Shown here one piece after another: positions 10,464 to 50,820 of a DNA stretch of 64,000 bases. The notes under the pieces were generated by a model. That model was given only the letters and a program-made list of their open reading frames with translations, had not been told where the DNA came from and did no database searches. A program made the position numbers and the translations under genes. The stretch lies in assembly GCF_004684205.1 (NCBI RefSeq), contig NZ_SRIO01000012.1, forward strand, positions 1-64,000, written 5' to 3'. This stretch comes from Candidatus Macondimonas diazotrophica. Lineage in GTDB: Bacteria; Pseudomonadota; Gammaproteobacteria; UBA5335. Position 1 is the first letter of the stretch; every line of letters begins with the position of its first letter.

Positions 10464-10739
10464 TCAACTCCCGGGTTCCGGGCGCAGGACAGCGATATCG
10501 CTCACGGACGGAATCATGGCGCAATTGGGATCATCATGCGCCGCCACATGGGCCGCGATCGCCTCGGCGATCGCACCCAGCGCTGTCGTGGATCGTCGCG
10601 AATCAAACCCGATGGCCGCGTCGATTTCCAGACCGGCGAGCAGCCGGTGATCAAGATCCGCGCCCGGATGGATCGCCAGGATCAGCGATCGCCGGGCGCG
10701 CCGGATCATCGCTGAATCGCGTCGCTTCACTGCCCGCAT
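10464..10739 (-). pseudogene. PII-like (SbtB-type) C-terminal remnant
   Basis: A 91-codon frame whose last about 45 residues resemble the C-terminus of the PII-like protein at 23160-23462: AEAIAAHVAAHDDPNCAM and SDIAVLRPE here, AEAIAAYLEAHYYADYAM and SDVAVLRPE there. The N-terminal half of the PII-like fold (beta-1, alpha-1, T-loop) is not recognisable, and the first about 30 codons overlap the end of the upstream Crp/Fnr gene in another frame. I read it as a truncated relic, or a very divergent PII-like protein with a start inside the regulator gene. It is on the same strand as, and directly after, the regulator. Confidence 0.5.
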
Positions 10740-11436
10740 CGTCGATCAGCGGATCAGGCTGGCAGGCGGCGGCCAGCCGCGCGGCATCGACGATCGTGAT
10801 GGTCTGCCCGGCGACCTCGATGCCGGCCTTCTCCAAGCTCGCGAGCGCGCGCGAAAACGATTCGCGGGTGATGCCGAGTTCCGAAGCGATGAGATTTTTT
10901 TCATACGGCAGAACAGCCTGCGCCGGCGTACCCTGGCGCTTGGATAGGGTCAGCAGGTAGCAGCCCACCCGTTGCACCGACGACCTGAGCTTCAGATTCT
11001 TCACCTGCCGCACCATGCGCCGGAATTGCCGCGCCAGCGCGTCGATCATCTCATGGGCCAGCAGGGGTTCCTGCAGCAGGGTCTCGCGGAACAGTGCCGC
11101 CGGAATCAGCAGAAAGCGCGAAGGCTCCGGCACGCGCGCCTGCATCAGATAGGGCGCCGCAGTGACCACCGCAGCCGGAATGATCAGATCCGGTGCGCGC
11201 ACCACTTCCACCAGCACCTCACGGCCTCGAATCGAACGGCCGAATAGCTGGACTGAACCGGACATCACCACGATCTGGAAGTTGGGCAATTCGCCCTGTT
11301 CGAACAGCACCGTTCCGGCCGCCACGCGGTGCTGAATCGCGCTGGCCAGCAGCCGCTCGCGGCTGGCCTCCGGCAACTGACGCAGCAGCGGCAGCGCCTG
11401 CGCTTCAACCTCTTCCGTCACGATCCCCTCCTTCAC
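10651..11436 (-). CDS. Crp/Fnr-family transcription regulator next to nar
   Basis: 261-residue regulator with an N-terminal cyclic-nucleotide-binding-type beta-roll (about 25-145), a long dimerisation helix (RQFRRMVRQVKNLKLRSS), and a C-terminal winged helix containing NLIASELGITRESFSRALAS. The recognition helix keeps the E-x-x-S-R pattern used by FNR-type proteins for TTGAT half-sites. No N-terminal cysteine cluster is present, so it should not carry an FNR-type [4Fe-4S] centre; a DNR/NarR-like NO- or nitrite-responsive role is possible. It diverges from narK, and the shared 208 bp carries two candidate binding palindromes. The extra about 30 residues at the C-terminus (after TITIVDAARLAAA) are Asp/Pro-rich and unusual. 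Confidence 0.88.
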   Translation of the reverse strand: MKEGIVTEEVEAQALPLLRQLPEASRERLLASAIQHRVAAGTVLFEQGELPNFQIVVMSGSVQLFGRSIRGREVLVEVVRAPDLIIPAAVVTAAPYLMQARVPEPSRFLLIPAALFRETLLQEPLLAHEMIDALARQFRRMVRQVKNLKLRSSVQRVGCYLLTLSKRQGTPAQAVLPYEKNLIASELGITRESFSRALASLEKAGIEVAGQTITIVDAARLAAACQPDPLIDDAGSEATRFSDDPARPAIADPGDPSGRGS

Positions 11437-11517
11437 CCAAAGGGTTGCCCTGGGCGATTTACGCCATCGGCATGCTGAATTTTCCTTGGGTCATTCTGGC
11501 ACGCGACAAATATTACG

Positions 11518-11533
11518 TGTGACTAATGTCACA
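11518..11533. promoter_or_regulatory. CRP-type palindrome TGTGA-N6-TCACA
   Basis: TGTGACTAATGTCACA is a perfect inverted repeat (TGTGAC / GTCACA, 4-base spacer) and exactly matches the CRP consensus TGTGA-N6-TCACA. It lies between the divergent Crp/Fnr-family regulator and narK, 8 bases from the FNR-type site. It could be an operator for the adjacent regulator or for a genomic CRP/Vfr. Confidence 0.65.
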
Positions 11534-11540
11534 TCGATAT

Positions 11541-11554
11541 TTGACATGAATCAA
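11541..11554. promoter_or_regulatory. FNR/DNR-type box upstream of narK
   Basis: TTGACATGAATCAA matches the FNR/ANR/DNR consensus TTGAY-N4-RTCAA with intact half-sites. Its centre is about 97 bp upstream of the narK ATG, which would suit anaerobic activation of the nar operon from a promoter starting near 11589. Because the site is symmetric, it could also serve the divergent regulator gene. Confidence 0.75.
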
Positions 11555-11644
11555 TGCGAACGGCTGTGCCCCCTGTCACCTTAACGCCAATCGTGAATCA
11601 CGCCTCAGTCGGTCGAACCATCCAGAAGTCAAGGAAACCCGACG

Positions 11645-14377
11645 ATGAACACTCAGGCCCATCCCCAATCGACTCGCATCCTGAGCGCGAGCACGCTGGC
11701 GTTTACCGTCTGCTTTGCCGTATGGACCATCTTCTCCATCATTGGAATCGGCATTCGCGAACAGCTCGGCTTGAGCGAGACTCAATTCGGCCTGCTGATC
11801 GGCATGCCAATTCTGACCGGCTCGCTCAGTCGTGTGGCGCTGGGGGTCTGGAGCGACCGCTACGGCGGCCGGCTGGTTTTCACCCTGACGATGCTCGCCG
11901 CTGCCGTGGCCACACTGCTGCTGTCACAGGCCGAAACCTACCCGCAGATCCTGTTGGCGGGATTGGGTGTCGGGATTGCCGGCGGCTCCTTCGCGGTTGG
12001 CGTTGCCTATGTCTCTCGCTGGTATCCACCGCAAAAACAGGGCACGGCGCTCGGCATTTTCGGCATGGGCAACATCGGCGCCGCTGTCACCAAGCTGGTC
12101 GCCCCCTTCGTGCTGGTTGCCTTTGGATGGCAAAGCGTCGCGCAGATCTGGGCAGCGGCGCTGGCGATCACCGCCGTGCTGTTCTGGATAACAACCCAGG
12201 ATGATCCGGTGCTGGTCGAACGTCGTCGAACCGGGGTCAAGCCCAAAAGCGTCTGGCTCGAACTGGAGCCGCTGAAGAACGTGCAGGTCTGGCGCTTCTC
12301 GCTCTACTACTTCTTTGTCTTCGGGGCCTTCGTCGCCCTGGCGCTCTGGCTGCCGCGCTATCTGACGCAGGTGTACCAGCTCGACATCAAGACGGCCGGG
12401 CTGATCGCGGCCCTGTTCTCGATCCCGGCCAGCTTCTTCCGCGCCTACGGCGGCCATCTGTCCGATGTCTATGGTGCGCGGCGGGTACTGTACTGGACCT
12501 TCCTCGTCTCCGTCGCTGCGACCTTCTTGCTCGCCTATCCGCCGACGGATTACCGGGTGCATGGCGCGCAAGAGACGTTCGCGTTCCATCTGGAAATGAG
12601 CCTGCCCAGTTTCGTCGTCATCATCTTTGTTCTTGGCTTTTTCATGGCGCTGGGCAAGGCAGCGGTCTACAAGCACATCCCGGTCTACTACCCGGATCAT
12701 GTGGGCGCGGTAGGCGGTCTGGTCGGCATGATCGGCGGTTTGGGCGGCTTCGTTCTGCCGATCCTGTTCGGCGTCCTCCTCGACCTCACCGGACTGTGGA
12801 CGAGCTGCTTCATGGCGCTGTTTGTCCTGGTGGGGACCGCGTTGGTGTGGATGCATCTGGCGATCCTGCGCATGGAGCGCGAGGCGGCGGCTCCCGTGCT
12901 CCGAAAGCTGCCGGAACTGCCCGAGATGGAAGAGATTCACGGCGCCAAACAGGTTGGCGTTCTGGGCTCTCATCGGGTACTGGCCCACTGGCGGCCGGAA
13001 GACCATGCCTTCTGGGTCCAGGAAGGAAAACGTATTGCCCACCGCAACCTCTGGCTGTCGATTCCCTGTCTGCTGCTCTCCTTCGCGGTCTGGATGGTCT
13101 GGTCGGTCGTGGTTGCCAAGCTGCCGGTCATCGGCTTTCGCTACAGCACCAACGAGCTGTTCTGGCTCGCCGCGCTGCCGGGGCTGTCGGGCGCGACGCT
13201 GCGCATCTTCTACTCCTTCATGGTGCCGATCTTCGGCGGGCGGCTATGGACGACGCTGACCACCTGGTCGCTGATGATCCCGGCCGTGGGCATCGGCTTT
13301 GCCGTGCAGAATCCCGAGACGCCCTACTGGGTCTTCCTGCTGCTGGCCCTGCTGTGCGGTTTTGGCGGCGGCAACTTCGCCTCCTCGATGTCGAACATCT
13401 CGTTCTTCTTCCCGCGGGCGGAGAAGGGCAATGCGCTGGCGCTCAACGCCGGGCTCGGCAACCTGGGCGTCAGCGTGGTGCAGTTCCTGGTGCCACTGGT
13501 GATCACCGCCGGTGTGTTCGGCGCGCTGGGGGGTGAGTCGCAGGTCGCGATCCAGGGTGACGAGACGACAAGCCTGTGGCTGCAGAACGCCGGCTTCATC
13601 TGGGTGCCCTTCATCGCCGTTGCCGCCACCGCGGCCTGGCTCGGCATGAACGACATCGCCTCGGCCAAGGCATCGTTCTCCGAGCAGTCGGTGATCTTCC
13701 AGCGCCTGCACAACTGGCTGATGTGCTGGCTCTATACGGGGACTTTCGGCTCCTTCATCGGCTACTCCGCGGCCTTCCCGCTGCTCACCAAAACCCAGTT
13801 TCCCGAGGTCAACGCCCTGCAGCTGGCCTTCCTCGGTCCGCTGGTCGGCGCCTTGTCGCGGTCACTGACCGGCTGGGTGGCGGACAAGTACGGCGGCGGT
13901 CGGGTGACGTTCTGGGTATTCGTGGCCATGATGGCCGGCGTGGGCGGCGTGCTTTACGGACTGAACATGCAGAGCTTCCCGGTGTTCTTCACCAGCTTCC
14001 TTGCACTGTTCTGCGCCACCGGGATCGGCAACGCCTCCACGTTTCAGATGATTCCGGCAATCATGACCAAGGAGATGCAGCGGCTGATGCCGGACGCCGA
14101 CGCCAAGACCCGTCAGCGACAGGTCGAGAAGGAGGCTGCGGCCATCACCGGCTTCACCTCGGCGATCGCGGCCTTCGGCGCCTTCTTCATCCCCAAGAGC
14201 TATGGCACCTCGATCGCCCTGACCGGCAGCGCGCAGGCCGCGCTGTGGGCCTTCCTCATCTTCTATATCAGCTGCCTTGTCCTTACCTGGGGGGTCTACA
14301 CCCGCAAGGGCGGTCTGCTGCATGACCTCGAACGCCAGCGGCGCGCCATACCGGCTCAACCGGCCGCGGCCAAGTAA
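11645..14377 (+). CDS. narK: Fused NarK1-NarK2 nitrate/nitrite transporter
   Basis: 910-residue inner-membrane protein made of two complete 12-helix major-facilitator halves in one chain. Half one (about 1-425) begins with LAFTVCFAVWTIFSIIGIGI, the NarK1-type nitrate/H+ symporter start. Half two (about 470-890) begins LWLSIPCLLLSFAVWMVWSV and ends TWGVYTRKGG, like NarK2 nitrate/nitrite antiporters. Each half has a nitrate-signature Gly-rich segment: GLGVGIAGGSFAVGVAY in half one, LLCGFGGGNFASSMSNISFF in half two. Such fusions are known in Paracoccus and other denitrifiers. AAGGAA lies just upstream of the ATG. It is first in the nar operon, 15 bp before narG, and should bring nitrate in and carry nitrite out. 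Confidence 0.95.
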   Translation: MNTQAHPQSTRILSASTLAFTVCFAVWTIFSIIGIGIREQLGLSETQFGLLIGMPILTGSLSRVALGVWSDRYGGRLVFTLTMLAAAVATLLLSQAETYPQILLAGLGVGIAGGSFAVGVAYVSRWYPPQKQGTALGIFGMGNIGAAVTKLVAPFVLVAFGWQSVAQIWAAALAITAVLFWITTQDDPVLVERRRTGVKPKSVWLELEPLKNVQVWRFSLYYFFVFGAFVALALWLPRYLTQVYQLDIKTAGLIAALFSIPASFFRAYGGHLSDVYGARRVLYWTFLVSVAATFLLAYPPTDYRVHGAQETFAFHLEMSLPSFVVIIFVLGFFMALGKAAVYKHIPVYYPDHVGAVGGLVGMIGGLGGFVLPILFGVLLDLTGLWTSCFMALFVLVGTALVWMHLAILRMEREAAAPVLRKLPELPEMEEIHGAKQVGVLGSHRVLAHWRPEDHAFWVQEGKRIAHRNLWLSIPCLLLSFAVWMVWSVVVAKLPVIGFRYSTNELFWLAALPGLSGATLRIFYSFMVPIFGGRLWTTLTTWSLMIPAVGIGFAVQNPETPYWVFLLLALLCGFGGGNFASSMSNISFFFPRAEKGNALALNAGLGNLGVSVVQFLVPLVITAGVFGALGGESQVAIQGDETTSLWLQNAGFIWVPFIAVAATAAWLGMNDIASAKASFSEQSVIFQRLHNWLMCWLYTGTFGSFIGYSAAFPLLTKTQFPEVNALQLAFLGPLVGALSRSLTGWVADKYGGGRVTFWVFVAMMAGVGGVLYGLNMQSFPVFFTSFLALFCATGIGNASTFQMIPAIMTKEMQRLMPDADAKTRQRQVEKEAAAITGFTSAIAAFGAFFIPKSYGTSIALTGSAQAALWAFLIFYISCLVLTWGVYTRKGGLLHDLERQRRAIPAQPAAAK

Positions 14378-29269: not shown

Positions 29270-29300
29270 TGCACCATTTTAGTGCCCCAAAATAGGGCAC
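29270..29300. promoter_or_regulatory. Overlapping NtrC-like enhancer sites
   Basis: Two overlapping dyads. TGCACCATTTTAGTGCC (29270-29286) is one or two bases from the classical NtrC site GCACCATTTTGGTGC. GTGCCCCAAAATAGGGCAC (29282-29300) is a second perfect dyad with the same A/T-rich centre. They sit about 95-125 bp upstream of the sigma-54 promoter at 29393, the usual enhancer distance. They also lie just upstream of ubiK. Confidence 0.6.
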
Positions 29301-29392
29301 GCATTCCGTGACGCTCAACTTCACATAGTAGCAATTCACCCCAAATTGCCGCATTTCAATGCTCGCAACGAGTCGTTCCTCCGCCCGAAGCA

Positions 29393-29410
29393 TGGCATGG
29401 AACCTGCTTT
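29393..29410 (+). promoter_or_regulatory. Sigma-54 promoter of the PII-PII-amtB cluster
   Basis: TGGCATGGAACCTGCTTT carries the invariant GG and GC dinucleotides separated by 10 bases (-24/-12). Transcription would begin about 12 bases further on, near 29420, about 67 bp before the first PII gene. Confidence 0.7.
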
Positions 29411-29483
29411 ATGCCTGTGACGATTGGGGCGGATTGTCGGATATCCGTCCGGATTCGCCATTCAACAACCCCCGGAGTCATGA

Positions 29484-45388: not shown

Positions 45389-47761
45389 CTAGCGGCCCAA
45401 CAAATCCTGCCACCACTGGCGAAGGTGCTGCACCGGCGAGTTTTCATCCGGGTGCACCGCCCATCGCTCCGTCAACGCGCAGGGTACCGGATTGCCCGGG
45501 CCAGTGCCTTGCTGGAACGGCAACTCGATCGCACCGGCACACTCCGGGCCGGCGGCCCGACCAGTGGCCGGCTCCACCCAACGCAATGCCATCGAATCGG
45601 GCAGGACACGCGGGATAGGATGAACATCGCTGTTGCGCATGAGATCGAGCCAGATCGGCAAGGCACCGGATGAGCCCGACAGCCCCATCGGCGTGTTGTC
45701 GTCCCGACCGACCCACACGACCGCCATGCGATTGCCCGCATATCCGGCAAACCATGCGTCGCGCTGTTCGTCCGTAGTGCCGGTCTTTCCGGCGGCTTCC
45801 CAACTCGACGGCAACCCTGCCGCACTCCGAGCGGTTCCTCTCAACACCACTTGCCGCATTGCGGCATGAAGCAGTGCCGCCGCTTCGGGGGATGCCGCCT
45901 GATGCAGGTCCAGAGGATAGCGGCGTAGCGGCTGGCCCGACGGGGAGACGACTTCCCGGATGATCTGCAGCGGCGCATGGATCCCGCCGCCGGCGAGGGT
46001 CTGATACATCTGGGCAACGTCGATCGGACTGAGTTCGAGGGTGCCGAGCAGTACTGCAGGAACCTGTGGAATATCCGCATTGACACCGAGATTGCGCAAG
46101 GTCTGAACGATGCGCGGAATCCCGACCTCAAGCCCCAGGTGCACCGTCGCCGCGTTGTGCGATTGGGCCAGCGCCTGGAACAGGGGTTCCTCGCCATGGA
46201 ATCGTCCAGATGCATTGCCCGGCCGCCAGATGGTGCCACCCGCCACCTTGACTGCCACCGGCTCGTCTCGCACCGTGCTGACCAGTGTATAGCGTCCAGA
46301 CTCCAACGCGGCGAGATAGACCGCCGGCTTGACCAGTGAACCGATCGGCCGCCGCGCAGTAAGCGCACGATTGAATCCCCCGGCGGCATCGTCACGACCA
46401 CCGACGACGGCCTGAACCGCGCCAGTGAGGACATCGGTCACCACAATCGCGCCTTGGAGATCTTTCTTCCCTTGTTGGGCGAGTCGGTCCAGGTTCCGTC
46501 GAAGAACACGCTCCGCCTGACCCTGAACCTCCGGGTTGATGGTGGTGTAGATCCGCAAACCCTCGGCGATCACATCGTCCTGAGAGTAATCACGGAGAAG
46601 ATGGGCGCGGACCAGCCCCAATGCCGCGCCGTACGCCCCTCCGCGCTGCGCGGCGGTGCGCACGCCCAGTGGCCTGGATCGAGCCACCTCGAATGTTGCC
46701 TGATCAAGGAGCCCGACCTCGGCGAACACCCCGAGCACGGTATCGCGACGGCTGCGCGCTCGCTCGGGTTGGCGCAACGGATGATAATACGACGGGCCCT
46801 TGACCAGCCCGACAAGCAGCGCAGTTTCCTGAATCTCCAGTTCGCTCAATGGCTTGCCGAAATAATAGGCACTGGCGAGACCAAAGCCATGAATCGCACG
46901 CCCGGCCTGTTGGCCGAGATAGACTTCGTTCAGATAGGTTTCGAGGATTTCAGCCTTGGTGTAATGCCATTCCAGCAGCACCGCCATCAACGCTTCGTCA
47001 AACTTGCGCCGAAAGGTTCGGTCACTGTCCAGAAACAGATTCTTGACCAGTTGCTGGGTCAACGTGCTACCACCCTGCACGATGCGTCCGGCCCGAATAT
47101 TGGATAGCGCCGCCCGCAGCACCGCCCCCGGATCGATCCCCACATGCCGGGAAAACTGCCGATCTTCCACCGCGAGCAGTCCCAGAAGCAACGCTTGTGG
47201 AACTTCATTCAAGCGCACCAGAACGCGGTCTTCCCCATCCGATCCGTAAAGCGATCCGATCAATTCAGGGTCCAAGCGAAGCAATGCAGGCGCCGCTTCC
47301 CCATCCAAGGCAGTCAGCTCGGCAATCCCGGTTTCATCGAAGCGAATTCGGATGCGGCGAGCCGGCTGAGGGCCGTCCCAGAATGACAGGGCCCGCACGT
47401 GGATCACCAAGCGGTGCTGGCCATCTACCTGATAGGTCCCCGGTGTGTCCGGGCGCGCCGTCGCACGATATCCCGCCCGTTGCAACGCGCGCACCACCTG
47501 GTCGCGATCGACCACCTCGCCCACCCCGAGCTCCAGTGGGCGGCTGTATACCTGCGCCGGCAGAGACCAGCGCCGACTTTCGAAACGCGCGATGATCGTG
47601 TGATCGAGGTATGCCGCATAAACGGCCACTGCGCTCAGGACGAGCACGCCGACCCAGATTACCCATGGGCCGACACCGAGGAAACGAGGTCGTAATGAAG
47701 GCAAGAGGAAAATCCTGTCGCTGCACCAATCGGAGGATACCGTGATGCCGGAGTGCACCAC
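45389..47761 (-). CDS. mrcB: Penicillin-binding protein 1B
   Basis: 790-residue class A PBP: cytoplasmic start, one membrane helix (about 32-52), UB2H-like domain, glycosyltransferase GT51 (EDRQFSRHVGIDPGAVLRA, GGSTLTQQLVKNLF), and transpeptidase with SxxK (GSLVK), SHN (QSHNAA) and KTGT (GKTGTTDEQRDAWFAGY). It polymerises and cross-links peptidoglycan. The track start is GTG at 47759-47761 without a good ribosome-binding site; the true start may be a TTG about 20 codons in. It is the head of a minus-strand cluster ending with tsaB. Confidence 0.93.
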   Translation of the reverse strand: MVHSGITVSSDWCSDRIFLLPSLRPRFLGVGPWVIWVGVLVLSAVAVYAAYLDHTIIARFESRRWSLPAQVYSRPLELGVGEVVDRDQVVRALQRAGYRATARPDTPGTYQVDGQHRLVIHVRALSFWDGPQPARRIRIRFDETGIAELTALDGEAAPALLRLDPELIGSLYGSDGEDRVLVRLNEVPQALLLGLLAVEDRQFSRHVGIDPGAVLRAALSNIRAGRIVQGGSTLTQQLVKNLFLDSDRTFRRKFDEALMAVLLEWHYTKAEILETYLNEVYLGQQAGRAIHGFGLASAYYFGKPLSELEIQETALLVGLVKGPSYYHPLRQPERARSRRDTVLGVFAEVGLLDQATFEVARSRPLGVRTAAQRGGAYGAALGLVRAHLLRDYSQDDVIAEGLRIYTTINPEVQGQAERVLRRNLDRLAQQGKKDLQGAIVVTDVLTGAVQAVVGGRDDAAGGFNRALTARRPIGSLVKPAVYLAALESGRYTLVSTVRDEPVAVKVAGGTIWRPGNASGRFHGEEPLFQALAQSHNAATVHLGLEVGIPRIVQTLRNLGVNADIPQVPAVLLGTLELSPIDVAQMYQTLAGGGIHAPLQIIREVVSPSGQPLRRYPLDLHQAASPEAAALLHAAMRQVVLRGTARSAAGLPSSWEAAGKTGTTDEQRDAWFAGYAGNRMAVVWVGRDDNTPMGLSGSSGALPIWLDLMRNSDVHPIPRVLPDSMALRWVEPATGRAAGPECAGAIELPFQQGTGPGNPVPCALTERWAVHPDENSPVQHLRQWWQDLLGR

Positions 47762-47872
47762 ACCGGATCGCGCAAGCCGCCTGCGGCTGAGCGCTAATCC
47801 GGCGTGGCTATTTCAACATATTGATTCATCGATATGAAATCAAGCTGGCGTAATCTGTGCTTATAGTCTTTC

Positions 47873-47949
47873 GCACACAGCTTGTGTGCACTAGATCCTC
47901 CACGATCTCCCTCTCTCGCACTTCGCGCCCCATCGGGGCGCTTTTTTTT
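47873..47949 (+). ncRNA. Candidate small RNA with a CU-rich anti-SD-like seed
   Basis: A plus-strand unit in the 197-bp gap between mrcB and phoU, where no plus-strand protein gene exists. A TATAGT -10 box (47862-47867) ends 5 bases before a hairpin GCACAC-AGCTT-GTGTGC (47873-47889). Next is an unpaired CU-rich stretch (47895-47917) with CCTCC and CTCCC, complements of ribosome-binding sites. It ends in a terminator GCGCCCC-ATC-GGGGCGC plus eight T (47925-47949). A weak -35 is the main doubt. Predicted length about 77 bases. Confidence 0.6.
47925..47949 (+). terminator. Strong terminator of the candidate sRNA
   Basis: 7-bp G/C stem with a 3-base loop (GCGCCCC-ATC-GGGGCGC) and an eight-T tail on the plus strand. 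No plus-strand coding gene precedes it, so it must end an RNA starting nearby. Confidence 0.9.
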
Positions 47950-47958
47950 GCTCAGAGC

Positions 47959-48699
47959 TCACGGGGCCGACGGCTCGGGCGGATGCAAACGATCCACCGC
48001 GGCCCGCATCTCCTGCAGTGAAATGTGTCGGACATCGCGCCCACCGACCAGAAAAATCACATACTCGGCGATGTTACGGGAATGGTCCCCGACCCGCTCC
48101 AAGGCGCGCGCGCACCAGATGATATCCAGCATACGACGAATGGTACGCGGATCTTCCATCATGAAAGTGATGTTCTGGCGCCAGATCGCTTCATATTCGC
48201 GATCGACTTCCTCATCCGCATGCACAACCTGCAACGCAGCACGCGGATCCATGCGGGCAAAGGCATCGAGCGCGTCGGTCAGCATGGCGCGCGCGCGCGC
48301 GGCCAGATGCTCCAAGGCCTGATAGCAATGCGGAGACCGCTCCATCTGGCTCAGTTGTGCAGCCATCCGCGCAATCTTGCAGGACTCGTCGCCCACGCGC
48401 TCCAGATCGGTGATGATCTTGAGGATCGTGATAATCAGTCGCAGGTCGCCCGCGGCAGGCTGACGGCGGGCGAGAATGCGGTTGCATTCCTCATCCAGCG
48501 TGACCTCCTGCATGTTGATGCGATGATCGGCAGCGACCACCTCTTCAGCCAGCTGACTGTCGGCCCCGACCAGTGCCCGCATAGCCTGATCGATCTGGTC
48601 TTCGACTGCGCCGCCCATCGCCAGTACCCGGCTGCGGATCCCTTCAAGCTCTTCGTTGTAACGGCGGGACGTGTGCTGGGCAATGTCACCGGCTTCCAT
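47959..48699 (-). CDS. phoU: PhoU phosphate-signalling protein
   Basis: 246-residue all-helical protein of two PhoU repeats, with metal-binding motifs EVVAADHRINMQEVTLDEE and HADEEVDREYEAIW. PhoU links the Pst transporter with PhoR and restrains the Pho response at high phosphate. It overlaps the PstB-like gene by 14 bases, and GGAGG lies just before its ATG. Confidence 0.96.
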   Translation of the reverse strand: MEAGDIAQHTSRRYNEELEGIRSRVLAMGGAVEDQIDQAMRALVGADSQLAEEVVAADHRINMQEVTLDEECNRILARRQPAAGDLRLIITILKIITDLERVGDESCKIARMAAQLSQMERSPHCYQALEHLAARARAMLTDALDAFARMDPRAALQVVHADEEVDREYEAIWRQNITFMMEDPRTIRRMLDIIWCARALERVGDHSRNIAEYVIFLVGGRDVRHISLQEMRAAVDRLHPPEPSAP

Positions 48700-49537
48700 G
48701 ATTCCTCCATACCTTCGATTGGGTCAATTGCGCCGAGCCATACCGCCCAGTCAAGTACCATTCGGTTTCCCGCCGTTCCGGGCAGGTAAACATGCGATCG
48801 GTAGGACTGCACTCCATGACTCGCCCCGCGTGAAGAAACAAGCACATCTCGGACAAGCGAGCGGCTTGAGACAGATTGTGCGTGGCCATCAGAATCACAC
48901 GATCCTGTTGCAGGTCTTGCAGCAATGTCTCCATTCGACCTGTTGCAGCGGGACTCAGAGACATCGCGGGAACATCCACCAACACCACCCGGGGATCGAC
49001 GATCAAACTGCGCGCCAACGCCAGTAGATAGCGCTGTTCACCGTTCAGCTCACTCGCGCATCGATGCAAGCGCGGGGACCACGACTCAGAAAGACCCAAT
49101 CGATCCAATATCGATTGGACCGGATCGCTCAGCTTGCGTTCGCCCTGCAGTCGCAGACCATAGACGAGGTTGTCGCGCAGTGTACCCGGCAGTACCGCCG
49201 GAGCGCTGGGAATCCATACCATGGACCGGCGCACCGATTCAGCGTATTCCGCGTCATCGAGGGCCAGTGCGGTTCGGTCCGGCAAAATGACCGCTCCGGC
49301 AACGTCCAGGCGACCGACAGCAAGCGTCAGTCCGAACAGGGTCCGCAACAGGAGCGTTTTTCCAGCCCCTTCAGGTCCGATCAACGCGGTGATCACACCC
49401 GCCGGCAAAGCGAAACTCATGGGATGCAGCAGACCCATGCCCGCGTGCGTGCTGACCTGCAAGGCATGCACTTCCAGCCTCGCCCCGACACTTTCGCCGG
49501 CGCGTGTATCCGGCGCGTTTCGGTTCACCTCGTCCAT
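48686..49537 (-). CDS. PstB-like ABC ATPase with degenerate motifs
   Basis: 283-residue ATP-binding cassette most similar to PstB. Walker A is intact (GPEGAGKT). But the Q-loop Gln is lost (MVWIPSAPAV in place of MVFQKPNPF), the signature is LNGEQRYLLALARSL instead of LSGGQ, and Walker B reads VVLVDVPAMSLSP, so the catalytic Glu is Val. The H-loop (ATHNLSQ) survives. ATP binding without efficient hydrolysis is likely. It is followed by phoU but no pstS, pstC or pstA is nearby. It may be a regulatory partner of PhoU and not a transport subunit. Confidence 0.8.
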   Translation of the reverse strand: MDEVNRNAPDTRAGESVGARLEVHALQVSTHAGMGLLHPMSFALPAGVITALIGPEGAGKTLLLRTLFGLTLAVGRLDVAGAVILPDRTALALDDAEYAESVRRSMVWIPSAPAVLPGTLRDNLVYGLRLQGERKLSDPVQSILDRLGLSESWSPRLHRCASELNGEQRYLLALARSLIVDPRVVLVDVPAMSLSPAATGRMETLLQDLQQDRVILMATHNLSQAARLSEMCLFLHAGRVMECSPTDRMFTCPERRETEWYLTGRYGSAQLTQSKVWRNHGSR

Positions 49538-49770: not shown

Positions 49771-50820
49771 TCAGAACTTGAAGACCAGGCCCAAACCATA
49801 GCTGTCGGTCTGAGGATCGTCGATGCCGCCAACCGTACGGCCTTCGTCTTCATAGGTCACGTAGTAGGCCTGCGCAGTCAGCGCCTTGCTGAGCTTGTAG
49901 TCGATCCCAACTGCGAGCTCGGTGCGGTCGATGTCGGTCTGATCACCGGAAGTCTGACCATACTGAACCTTGAATTTGAAGGCTTCGTAGCTGTAGGCAA
50001 TCGAACCCAACCAGGAAGTCTCTTCGGCATCGCCGCCCTGAACGCCATTATCCTGATCGATGCCTTTGGCCTGCTGATAGAGTGCACCGATTTCCAGGGC
50101 TTCCATCAATTCGACCGCAACCGTGGCGCGGAGAATGTCGACCCCAACGGTACTTCCATCGAATTTCAGACTGCCTGCCTGATCACCGGCATAGGCCACC
50201 GCAGCATAAAACGGTCCTTGTTCGAGTTCTGCCGACGCGTAATAGGTATCGGCAACGCCGTTGTCCTCGTCATTGGCATTGTCGAGCGCTTCGCGCCCTT
50301 CGCCCGGCGCCACTGCGGCGGTGAGGGTCACCAGGTTGCCCAGCTTGGGCGTGTTGTACTGGATCATGTTGTTGGCGCGGGTCTCACCCACCATCAGATT
50401 GGTGATGTCGCCAATGGACTCGTCGTTGAACTGGTCGGCCTTGCTGCCGATTTCTTTGACCGGCGTATCGAATTTACCGACCTTGGCGGTCCCGAAGGCG
50501 CCTTGGAGCCCCATGAAAATGTTCCGCTCCGAGAACTCGTCGCTCTCGCTGCCATCGGGATTGGTGCCATATTCCAACTGATAGATCACCGACATGTCGC
50601 CCATGCCGATGTCATGGCTGCCCTTGAAGCCCAGGCGCGAGGAGTTGTTCTGGTCCTGCAGGCGCCAGGTCGTGCTCCCTTCCTTCGAATCCAGCCCGAT
50701 CTCATCTTTCTGTCCATCCAGGCCAACATTGAATCGGCCATAGACCTTGACGTCAGCCAGGGCTGCACCCGGCAATACCATAAGGCTTCCCATAGCTACT
50801 GCGACTAGATTCTTCTTCAC
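49771..50820 (-). CDS. Trimeric general porin
   Basis: 349-residue outer-membrane porin. Signal peptide ends AALA-DVKVYG; the mature N-terminus VKVYGRFNVGL and C-terminal Phe (GLGLVFKF) are typical of beta-barrel porins. SSRLGFKGSHDIGMGDMS and FMGLQGAFGTAKVGKFDTPV are Gram-negative porin family marks. It is acidic, with an Asp/Glu-rich surface, and flanked by Pho genes; a Pho-box-like site lies about 180 bp upstream. Phosphate or anion preference is inference only. Confidence 0.93.
   Translation of the reverse strand: MKKNLVAVAMGSLMVLPGAALADVKVYGRFNVGLDGQKDEIGLDSKEGSTTWRLQDQNNSSRLGFKGSHDIGMGDMSVIYQLEYGTNPDGSESDEFSERNIFMGLQGAFGTAKVGKFDTPVKEIGSKADQFNDESIGDITNLMVGETRANNMIQYNTPKLGNLVTLTAAVAPGEGREALDNANDEDNGVADTYYASAELEQGPFYAAVAYAGDQAGSLKFDGSTVGVDILRATVAVELMEALEIGALYQQAKGIDQDNGVQGGDAEETSWLGSIAYSYEAFKFKVQYGQTSGDQTDIDRTELAVGIDYKLSKALTAQAYYVTYEDEGRTVGGIDDPQTDSYGLGLVFKF

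Follow-up and report, generated by a model that had tools for sequence, protein, structure and literature searches.

In the window, the whole stretch of 64,000 nucleotides of Candidatus Macondimonas diazotrophica DNA analysed here, the genes mrcB and phoU both lie on the minus strand, and a small RNA (sRNA) is predicted to be encoded on the plus strand between them. An sRNA-like unit at 47873-47949 on this strand had been proposed in an earlier note, and it stands as real, given its fold and its conservation throughout the genus. The features of the locus, with promoter distances counted from the predicted first base of the RNA, are as follows:

45389-47761, minus strand: mrcB, penicillin-binding protein 1B (TIGR02071, 817 bits)
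47722-47738, plus strand: NtrC-like site 1, with a TGCACCA half-site, centred at -142 (consensus from PMC8743547)
47754-47770, plus strand: NtrC-like site 2, with a TGCACCA half-site, centred at -110 (consensus from PMC8743547)
47814-47826, minus strand: perfect IHF site AATCAATATGTTG (WATCAANNNNTTR), one of three matches in the 64 kb, found in all four genomes of the genus
47846-47860, plus strand: sigma-54 -24/-12 element TGGC-N8-TGC (GG at 47847-47848, GC at 47859-47860), with GG-N10-GC in five of five genomes
47873-47949, plus strand: predicted sRNA of 77-78 nt, more conserved than any other part of the locus
47873-47889, plus strand: 5' hairpin GCACACA-GCU-UGUGUGC, 7 bp by folding; a hairpin of other sequence in G004
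47893-47908, plus strand: middle hairpin AGAUC-CUCCAC-GAUCU, 5 bp predicted, with a loop resembling an anti-Shine-Dalgarno (anti-SD) sequence; unchanged throughout the genus, missing in G004
47907-47923, plus strand: single-stranded CUCCCUCUCUC and CGCACUU linker, present in five of five genomes
47925-47949, plus strand: intrinsic terminator of seven GC pairs and T8, present in five of five genomes
47959-48699, minus strand: phoU (TIGR02135, 236.5 bits), tail to tail with the sRNA

The annotated GTG start of mrcB overlaps the NtrC-like sites, and the gene probably begins at a more internal start codon. Next to phoU is a PstB-like ATPase (window 48686-49537), which scores 155.6 bits, well under the PstB cut-off of 343.

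Structure and conservation of the predicted RNA

The stretch 47873-47949 folds at -28.7 kcal/mol, compared with -13.9 +/- 2.4 kcal/mol for its shuffles (z = -6.15; 0 of 200 shuffles). The 5' hairpin previously described as a 6-bp stem beginning at 47873 is present, with 7 bp by folding rather than 6. The C/U-rich middle had been taken for 23 unpaired bases; CCTCC/CTCCC are indeed found there, but folding places part of the region in the hairpin at 47893-47908, where CUCCAC is exposed, followed by single-stranded CUCCCUCUCUC. The G/C terminator was described correctly, its stem spanning 47925-47941 and its run of eight T ending at 47949. As both flanking genes are on the minus strand, there is no protein gene for which this plus-strand terminator could act. 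A two-way terminator serving phoU was ruled out, given that the hairpin on the phoU strand has no U-run after it, and a coding reading was ruled out by indels in the loops, the lengths of which vary by 1-3 bases among relatives, which argues against a reading frame.

All three remaining genomes of the genus contain the DNA of the sRNA, and one of the family's two other genera (G004) contains part of it, as a diverged copy in the equivalent place; the sRNA is thereby kept in five of six family genomes. Every copy lies beside phoU, and in the mrcB-phoU gap wherever the contig shows it. A covariance model (R2) built from the five sRNA sequences detected no copy in the remaining family genome (G005, 82% complete), and no credible member beyond the family over 369 genomes of the class; three matches outside the family (E 1e-3 to 1e-2) were unconvincing on inspection and stand at about chance level (0.01 per genome).

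Across the four genomes of the genus, 47893-47931 (39 bases) and 47934-47948 are unchanged, and AGATCCTCCACGATCTCCCTCTCTCGCACTTCGCG is invariant. No other run without a change in the surrounding 1.4 kb is as long as the first of these, the longest in phoU reaching 17 bases; of the alignment columns, about 30% are invariant for the intergenic DNA on either side, about 50% for mrcB and 68% for phoU. All of the base pairs named above form in every genus sequence, and the pairs hardly vary, so that covariation supports neither side. The earlier note had looked to relatives for conservation of hairpin, seed and terminator: the C/U-rich part and the terminator are kept in five of five, and G004 retains both together with the CGCACTTCGCG linker, but its 5' hairpin differs in sequence. 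Taken from sequence, these features indicate that the sRNA gene between mrcB and phoU is real and conserved, and it appears to be undescribed.

Promoter and upstream sites

The promoter of the sRNA is most likely of the sigma-54 type, with NtrC-like enhancer sites. The GG-N10-GC element reads CTGGCGTAATCTGTGC in this genome and CTGGCTTAATCCGTGC, TTGGCTTAATCTGTGC, TTGGCCCGATCCATGC and TTGGCGTAGGATTTGC in the others, and +1, 12 bases beyond its C, falls at 47872, the base directly ahead of the 5' hairpin. In all four genomes of the genus, the IHF site is placed between the NtrC-like boxes and the promoter; the upstream region of G004 has no IHF match. A palindrome TTGATTCAT...ATGAAATCAA (47821-47843), to which attention had been drawn before, exists as described, though relatives keep only its left part, which falls inside the IHF site.

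Upstream of the IHF site, a pair of YGCACCA half-sites 31-32 bp apart is found in all four genomes of the genus, at -142/-110 in this genome, G001 and G002 and at -139/-108 in G003. It is the sole pair with this spacing in 0.96 Mb of sampled strand sequence of the genome, a sample of 20 stretches having served as background for site counts. The score of the paired NtrC boxes is matched by 0.2-2.5% of random stretches; the left halves are exact and the right halves poor, with agreement at 9-10 of 14 consensus positions. The half-sites of G004 are far higher upstream, at -286, -254 and -225. In E. coli, the NtrC box is TGCACCAnnnTGGTGCA, and TGCACCA is an NtrC half-site (PMC8743547). Within the genus, glnK carries TGCACCATTTTAGTGC or TGCACCATTTTGGCGC about 141 bases ahead of its sigma-54 +1, and the glnA promoter has a similar layout of boxes. 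The enteric glnA enhancer is located at about -140 and -108. NtrC itself is encoded in the genome (753.8 bits against a curated cut-off of 620), by a gene that adjoins glnA and ntrB on a contig other than that of the sRNA. The activator control suggested earlier is thus retained on a different ground, namely the conserved sigma-54 promoter and NtrC-like sites instead of a weak -35, while control by phosphate finds no support, the sequence pointing to nitrogen.

The window also contains a glnK-glnK-amtB cluster, in which two P-II genes stand in tandem ahead of amtB; its promoter (window 29270-29419) combines an NtrC-like box, TGCACCATTTTAGTGC, with the sigma-54 element TGGCATGGAACCTGC, both conserved in the genus.

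Proposed mechanism, alternatives and candidate targets

We put at about 0.66 the probability that the locus is a stand-alone trans-acting sRNA gene, activated by NtrC, sigma-54 and IHF at nitrogen limitation, that lowers the translation of several mRNAs. Upon nitrogen limitation, phosphorylated NtrC would occupy the two upstream sites (-142, -110), IHF would bend the DNA between these sites and the promoter, and NtrC would open sigma-54 polymerase at the -24/-12 element. The resulting RNA of 77-78 nt would extend from the 5' hairpin to the T8 terminator, and its loop CUCCAC and single-stranded CUCCCUCUCUC would cover ribosome-binding sites, such that several mRNAs would be translated less. The sequence itself shows the conserved unit, its structure, the promoter elements and the presence of NtrC; transcription, nitrogen induction and repression by base pairing we infer. 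The promoter half of the mechanism draws on conserved sequence; anti-SD action, which the C/U-rich loop and the single-stranded CUCCCUCUCUC make likely, draws on likeness to other anti-SD sRNAs. Since the promoter is laid out like nitrogen-starvation promoters, the sRNA probably acts in nitrogen shortage, and it probably helps the cell to adjust protein synthesis under this condition. NfeR1 and MmgR are known examples of nitrogen-controlled CU-rich anti-SD sRNAs (PMC10746234, PMC7143759).

It is rather unlikely that the same sRNA and sigma-54 promoter answer to another enhancer-binding protein, and to a signal other than nitrogen. The genome encodes about eight proteins with a sigma-54 activator domain, and the NtrC-like sites match poorly in their right halves; however, TGCACCA is an NtrC half-site (PMC8743547) found at equal distance at the glnK promoter of the genus, and the 32-bp spacing of the sites is kept genus-wide. 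A cis-acting antisense RNA, directed at the mrcB leader or at a transcript reading through from phoU into mrcB and having no trans targets, would account for the full complementarity to phoU-mrcB intergenic RNA and for the position kept even in G004. Such a role is improbable, as the unchanged bases lie at a distance from the mrcB start and do not reach the phoU stop, a perfect antisense RNA needs neither a CU-rich anti-SD-like core nor a hairpin covering it, and nitrogen control of mrcB or phoU would be without reason.

The TATAGT at 47862-47867, read in the earlier note as a sigma-70 -10 box, exists 6 bases ahead of the hairpin and could indicate an sRNA made from a sigma-70 promoter, constitutively or under some other activator. 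Such an origin is very improbable: relatives do not keep TATAGT, whereas the hairpin, the terminator and GG-N10-GC are kept, and a consensus scan yields no sigma-70 promoter here. That there is no gene at all, the gap combining conserved mrcB control DNA with a chance hairpin, is hardly credible even though the mrcB promoter must be in or near the gap and the sRNA is a prediction from sequence, as the bases of highest conservation are found past the sigma-54 element in the downstream direction, on the strand opposite to mrcB, and end in a plus-strand terminator, within a fold of the stability given above.

For the trans-acting sRNA, a target search with the CU-rich seed, as recommended earlier, gave matches no better than those of shuffled seeds: when 390 translation starts were scanned for duplexes, the best credible match was equalled with 20 of 50 shuffled seeds. 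This match is to a gene for an FtrB-like Crp/Fnr regulator (start 11421, minus strand; -32.3 kcal/mol, and -34.1 in G003), with pairing over the SD and the start codon in each of the two genomes that have the gene; G001, G002 and G004 have no close ortholog. The start region that pairs with the sRNA is GAAGGAGGGGATCGTG, a pairing not beyond chance for the whole scan. The regulator gene is divergent from that of a 910-aa fused transporter, the second half of which is of the type of the nitrate transporter NarK (window 10651-14377). Two genes from the sRNA, a Porin_4 gene (window 49771-50820) has an SD AGGGAGAU (GAAGGGAGAT) that complements AUCUCCCU of the sRNA, over 8 nt in this genome and G001 and 7 nt in G002. 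A longest-match scan returned six starts with at least 8 matching bases against 4.7 expected, and ntrB, a target of NfeR1, gave no pairing with the sRNA (-4.1). Strict 17-mer pattern searches were set aside, with matches mostly within genes. The porin and FtrB-like regulator genes are candidates that merit testing, in scans that do not rise above composition.

A probable sibling and relation to known sRNAs

At a lower threshold, the best non-self match of R2 in G000, G002, G003, G004 and G006 is one further sRNA-like locus, consisting of GTCTCCTCCTGAAAGGACC(T)CCCTCGTCCTTTCACGCACTT and a terminator with TTGACA upstream, and nearly identical across two families:

L146:1051-1119 (G000 contig C16, about 12750-12818): second sRNA-like locus, with orthologs in L147, L148, L149 and L151
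L151:518-588 and L151:956-1026 (G006 contig C269, another family): two sibling-type units in tandem, about 440 bases apart

This locus and the mrcB-phoU sRNA have in common the CGCACUU-terminator end and CU-rich motifs. The two are probably siblings, the second locus having a sigma-70-like promoter, and common descent appears likely from their sequences. Tentatively, and with slightly less than even odds, the mrcB-phoU sRNA may be the nitrogen-responsive member of a small anti-SD sibling family in this gammaproteobacterial order, a counterpart of the alphaproteobacterial NfeR1/MmgR/CcsR group; the siblings would have a 3' end and CU-rich motifs in common and differ in promoter (predicted NtrC/sigma-54 type for the mrcB-phoU sRNA versus TTGACA type on G000 contig C16). 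If true, nitrogen shortage and another condition would silence overlapping sets of mRNAs through siblings.

To our knowledge, few sRNAs are directly under NtrC and sigma-54. The locus adds an apparently undescribed, predicted sRNA of this type from a gammaproteobacterial lineage that is uncultured, and its promoter and RNA are each delimited clearly enough for joint testing. Together with the probable sibling, it suggests that anti-SD sRNA groups like those of alphaproteobacteria occur here too, one member being under nitrogen control.

Rfam searches of the whole window, the region and its relatives returned nothing over the cut-off for the sRNA. The original suggestion that the locus encodes an undescribed sRNA acting in trans through a CU-rich, anti-SD-like region agrees with this, as with the conservation, structure and strand arrangement. 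The best resemblance is to suhB/MmgR (RF00519), where scores of 19.0, 19.4 and 21.6 bits, about half the cut-off of 41, signify likeness and not membership. MmgR (alpha-r8) of Sinorhizobium meliloti is a 77-nt RNA whose anti-SD motif lies in a loop and which NtrC induces at nitrogen limitation (PMC7143759); size, anti-SD loop and (predicted) NtrC control are common to both, but MmgR is an alphaproteobacterial RNA with three stem-loops, and the resemblance is confined to the CU-rich stretch and the terminator end. The alphaproteobacterial NfeR1 (alpha-r14) and cuckoo (CcsR) sRNAs likewise carry CU-rich anti-SD motifs, either in a loop or in an unpaired part, and have variable stems and sibling copies, though NfeR1 has a sigma-70 promoter repressed by NtrC. 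RNAs of the alpha-r14 and cuckoo type carry CCUCCUCCC (PMC10746234), which is absent from the sRNA, where only UCCUCCAC and UCUCCCUCUCUC occur, and the cuckoo likeness noted earlier thus does not extend to membership. Short hairpins and unpaired CU-rich stretches are also characteristic of the Betaproteobacteria toxic sRNA (RF02278) and of the Burkholderia ncS54 and anti-hemB sRNAs (PMC5688073); the likeness to RF02278 lies in these features, at 12.0 bits against a cut-off of 50 for the mrcB-phoU sRNA and a sub-threshold 19-27 bits for the second locus, and ncS54 gives 16.4-19.4 bits against a cut-off of 43. NrsZ of Pseudomonas aeruginosa is made at nitrogen limitation via NtrB/C and RpoN, and is an sRNA of about 226 nt that is processed, is encoded beside ntrC and activates rhlA (PMC8395346). 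Both are gammaproteobacterial sRNAs under nitrogen-limitation control (predicted here), whereas the RNA described here has 77-78 nt and lies between mrcB and phoU, with ntrC on another contig. The mrcB-phoU sRNA, itself apparently undescribed, would thus join a known kind, that of NtrC-controlled sRNAs such as NrsZ and MmgR.
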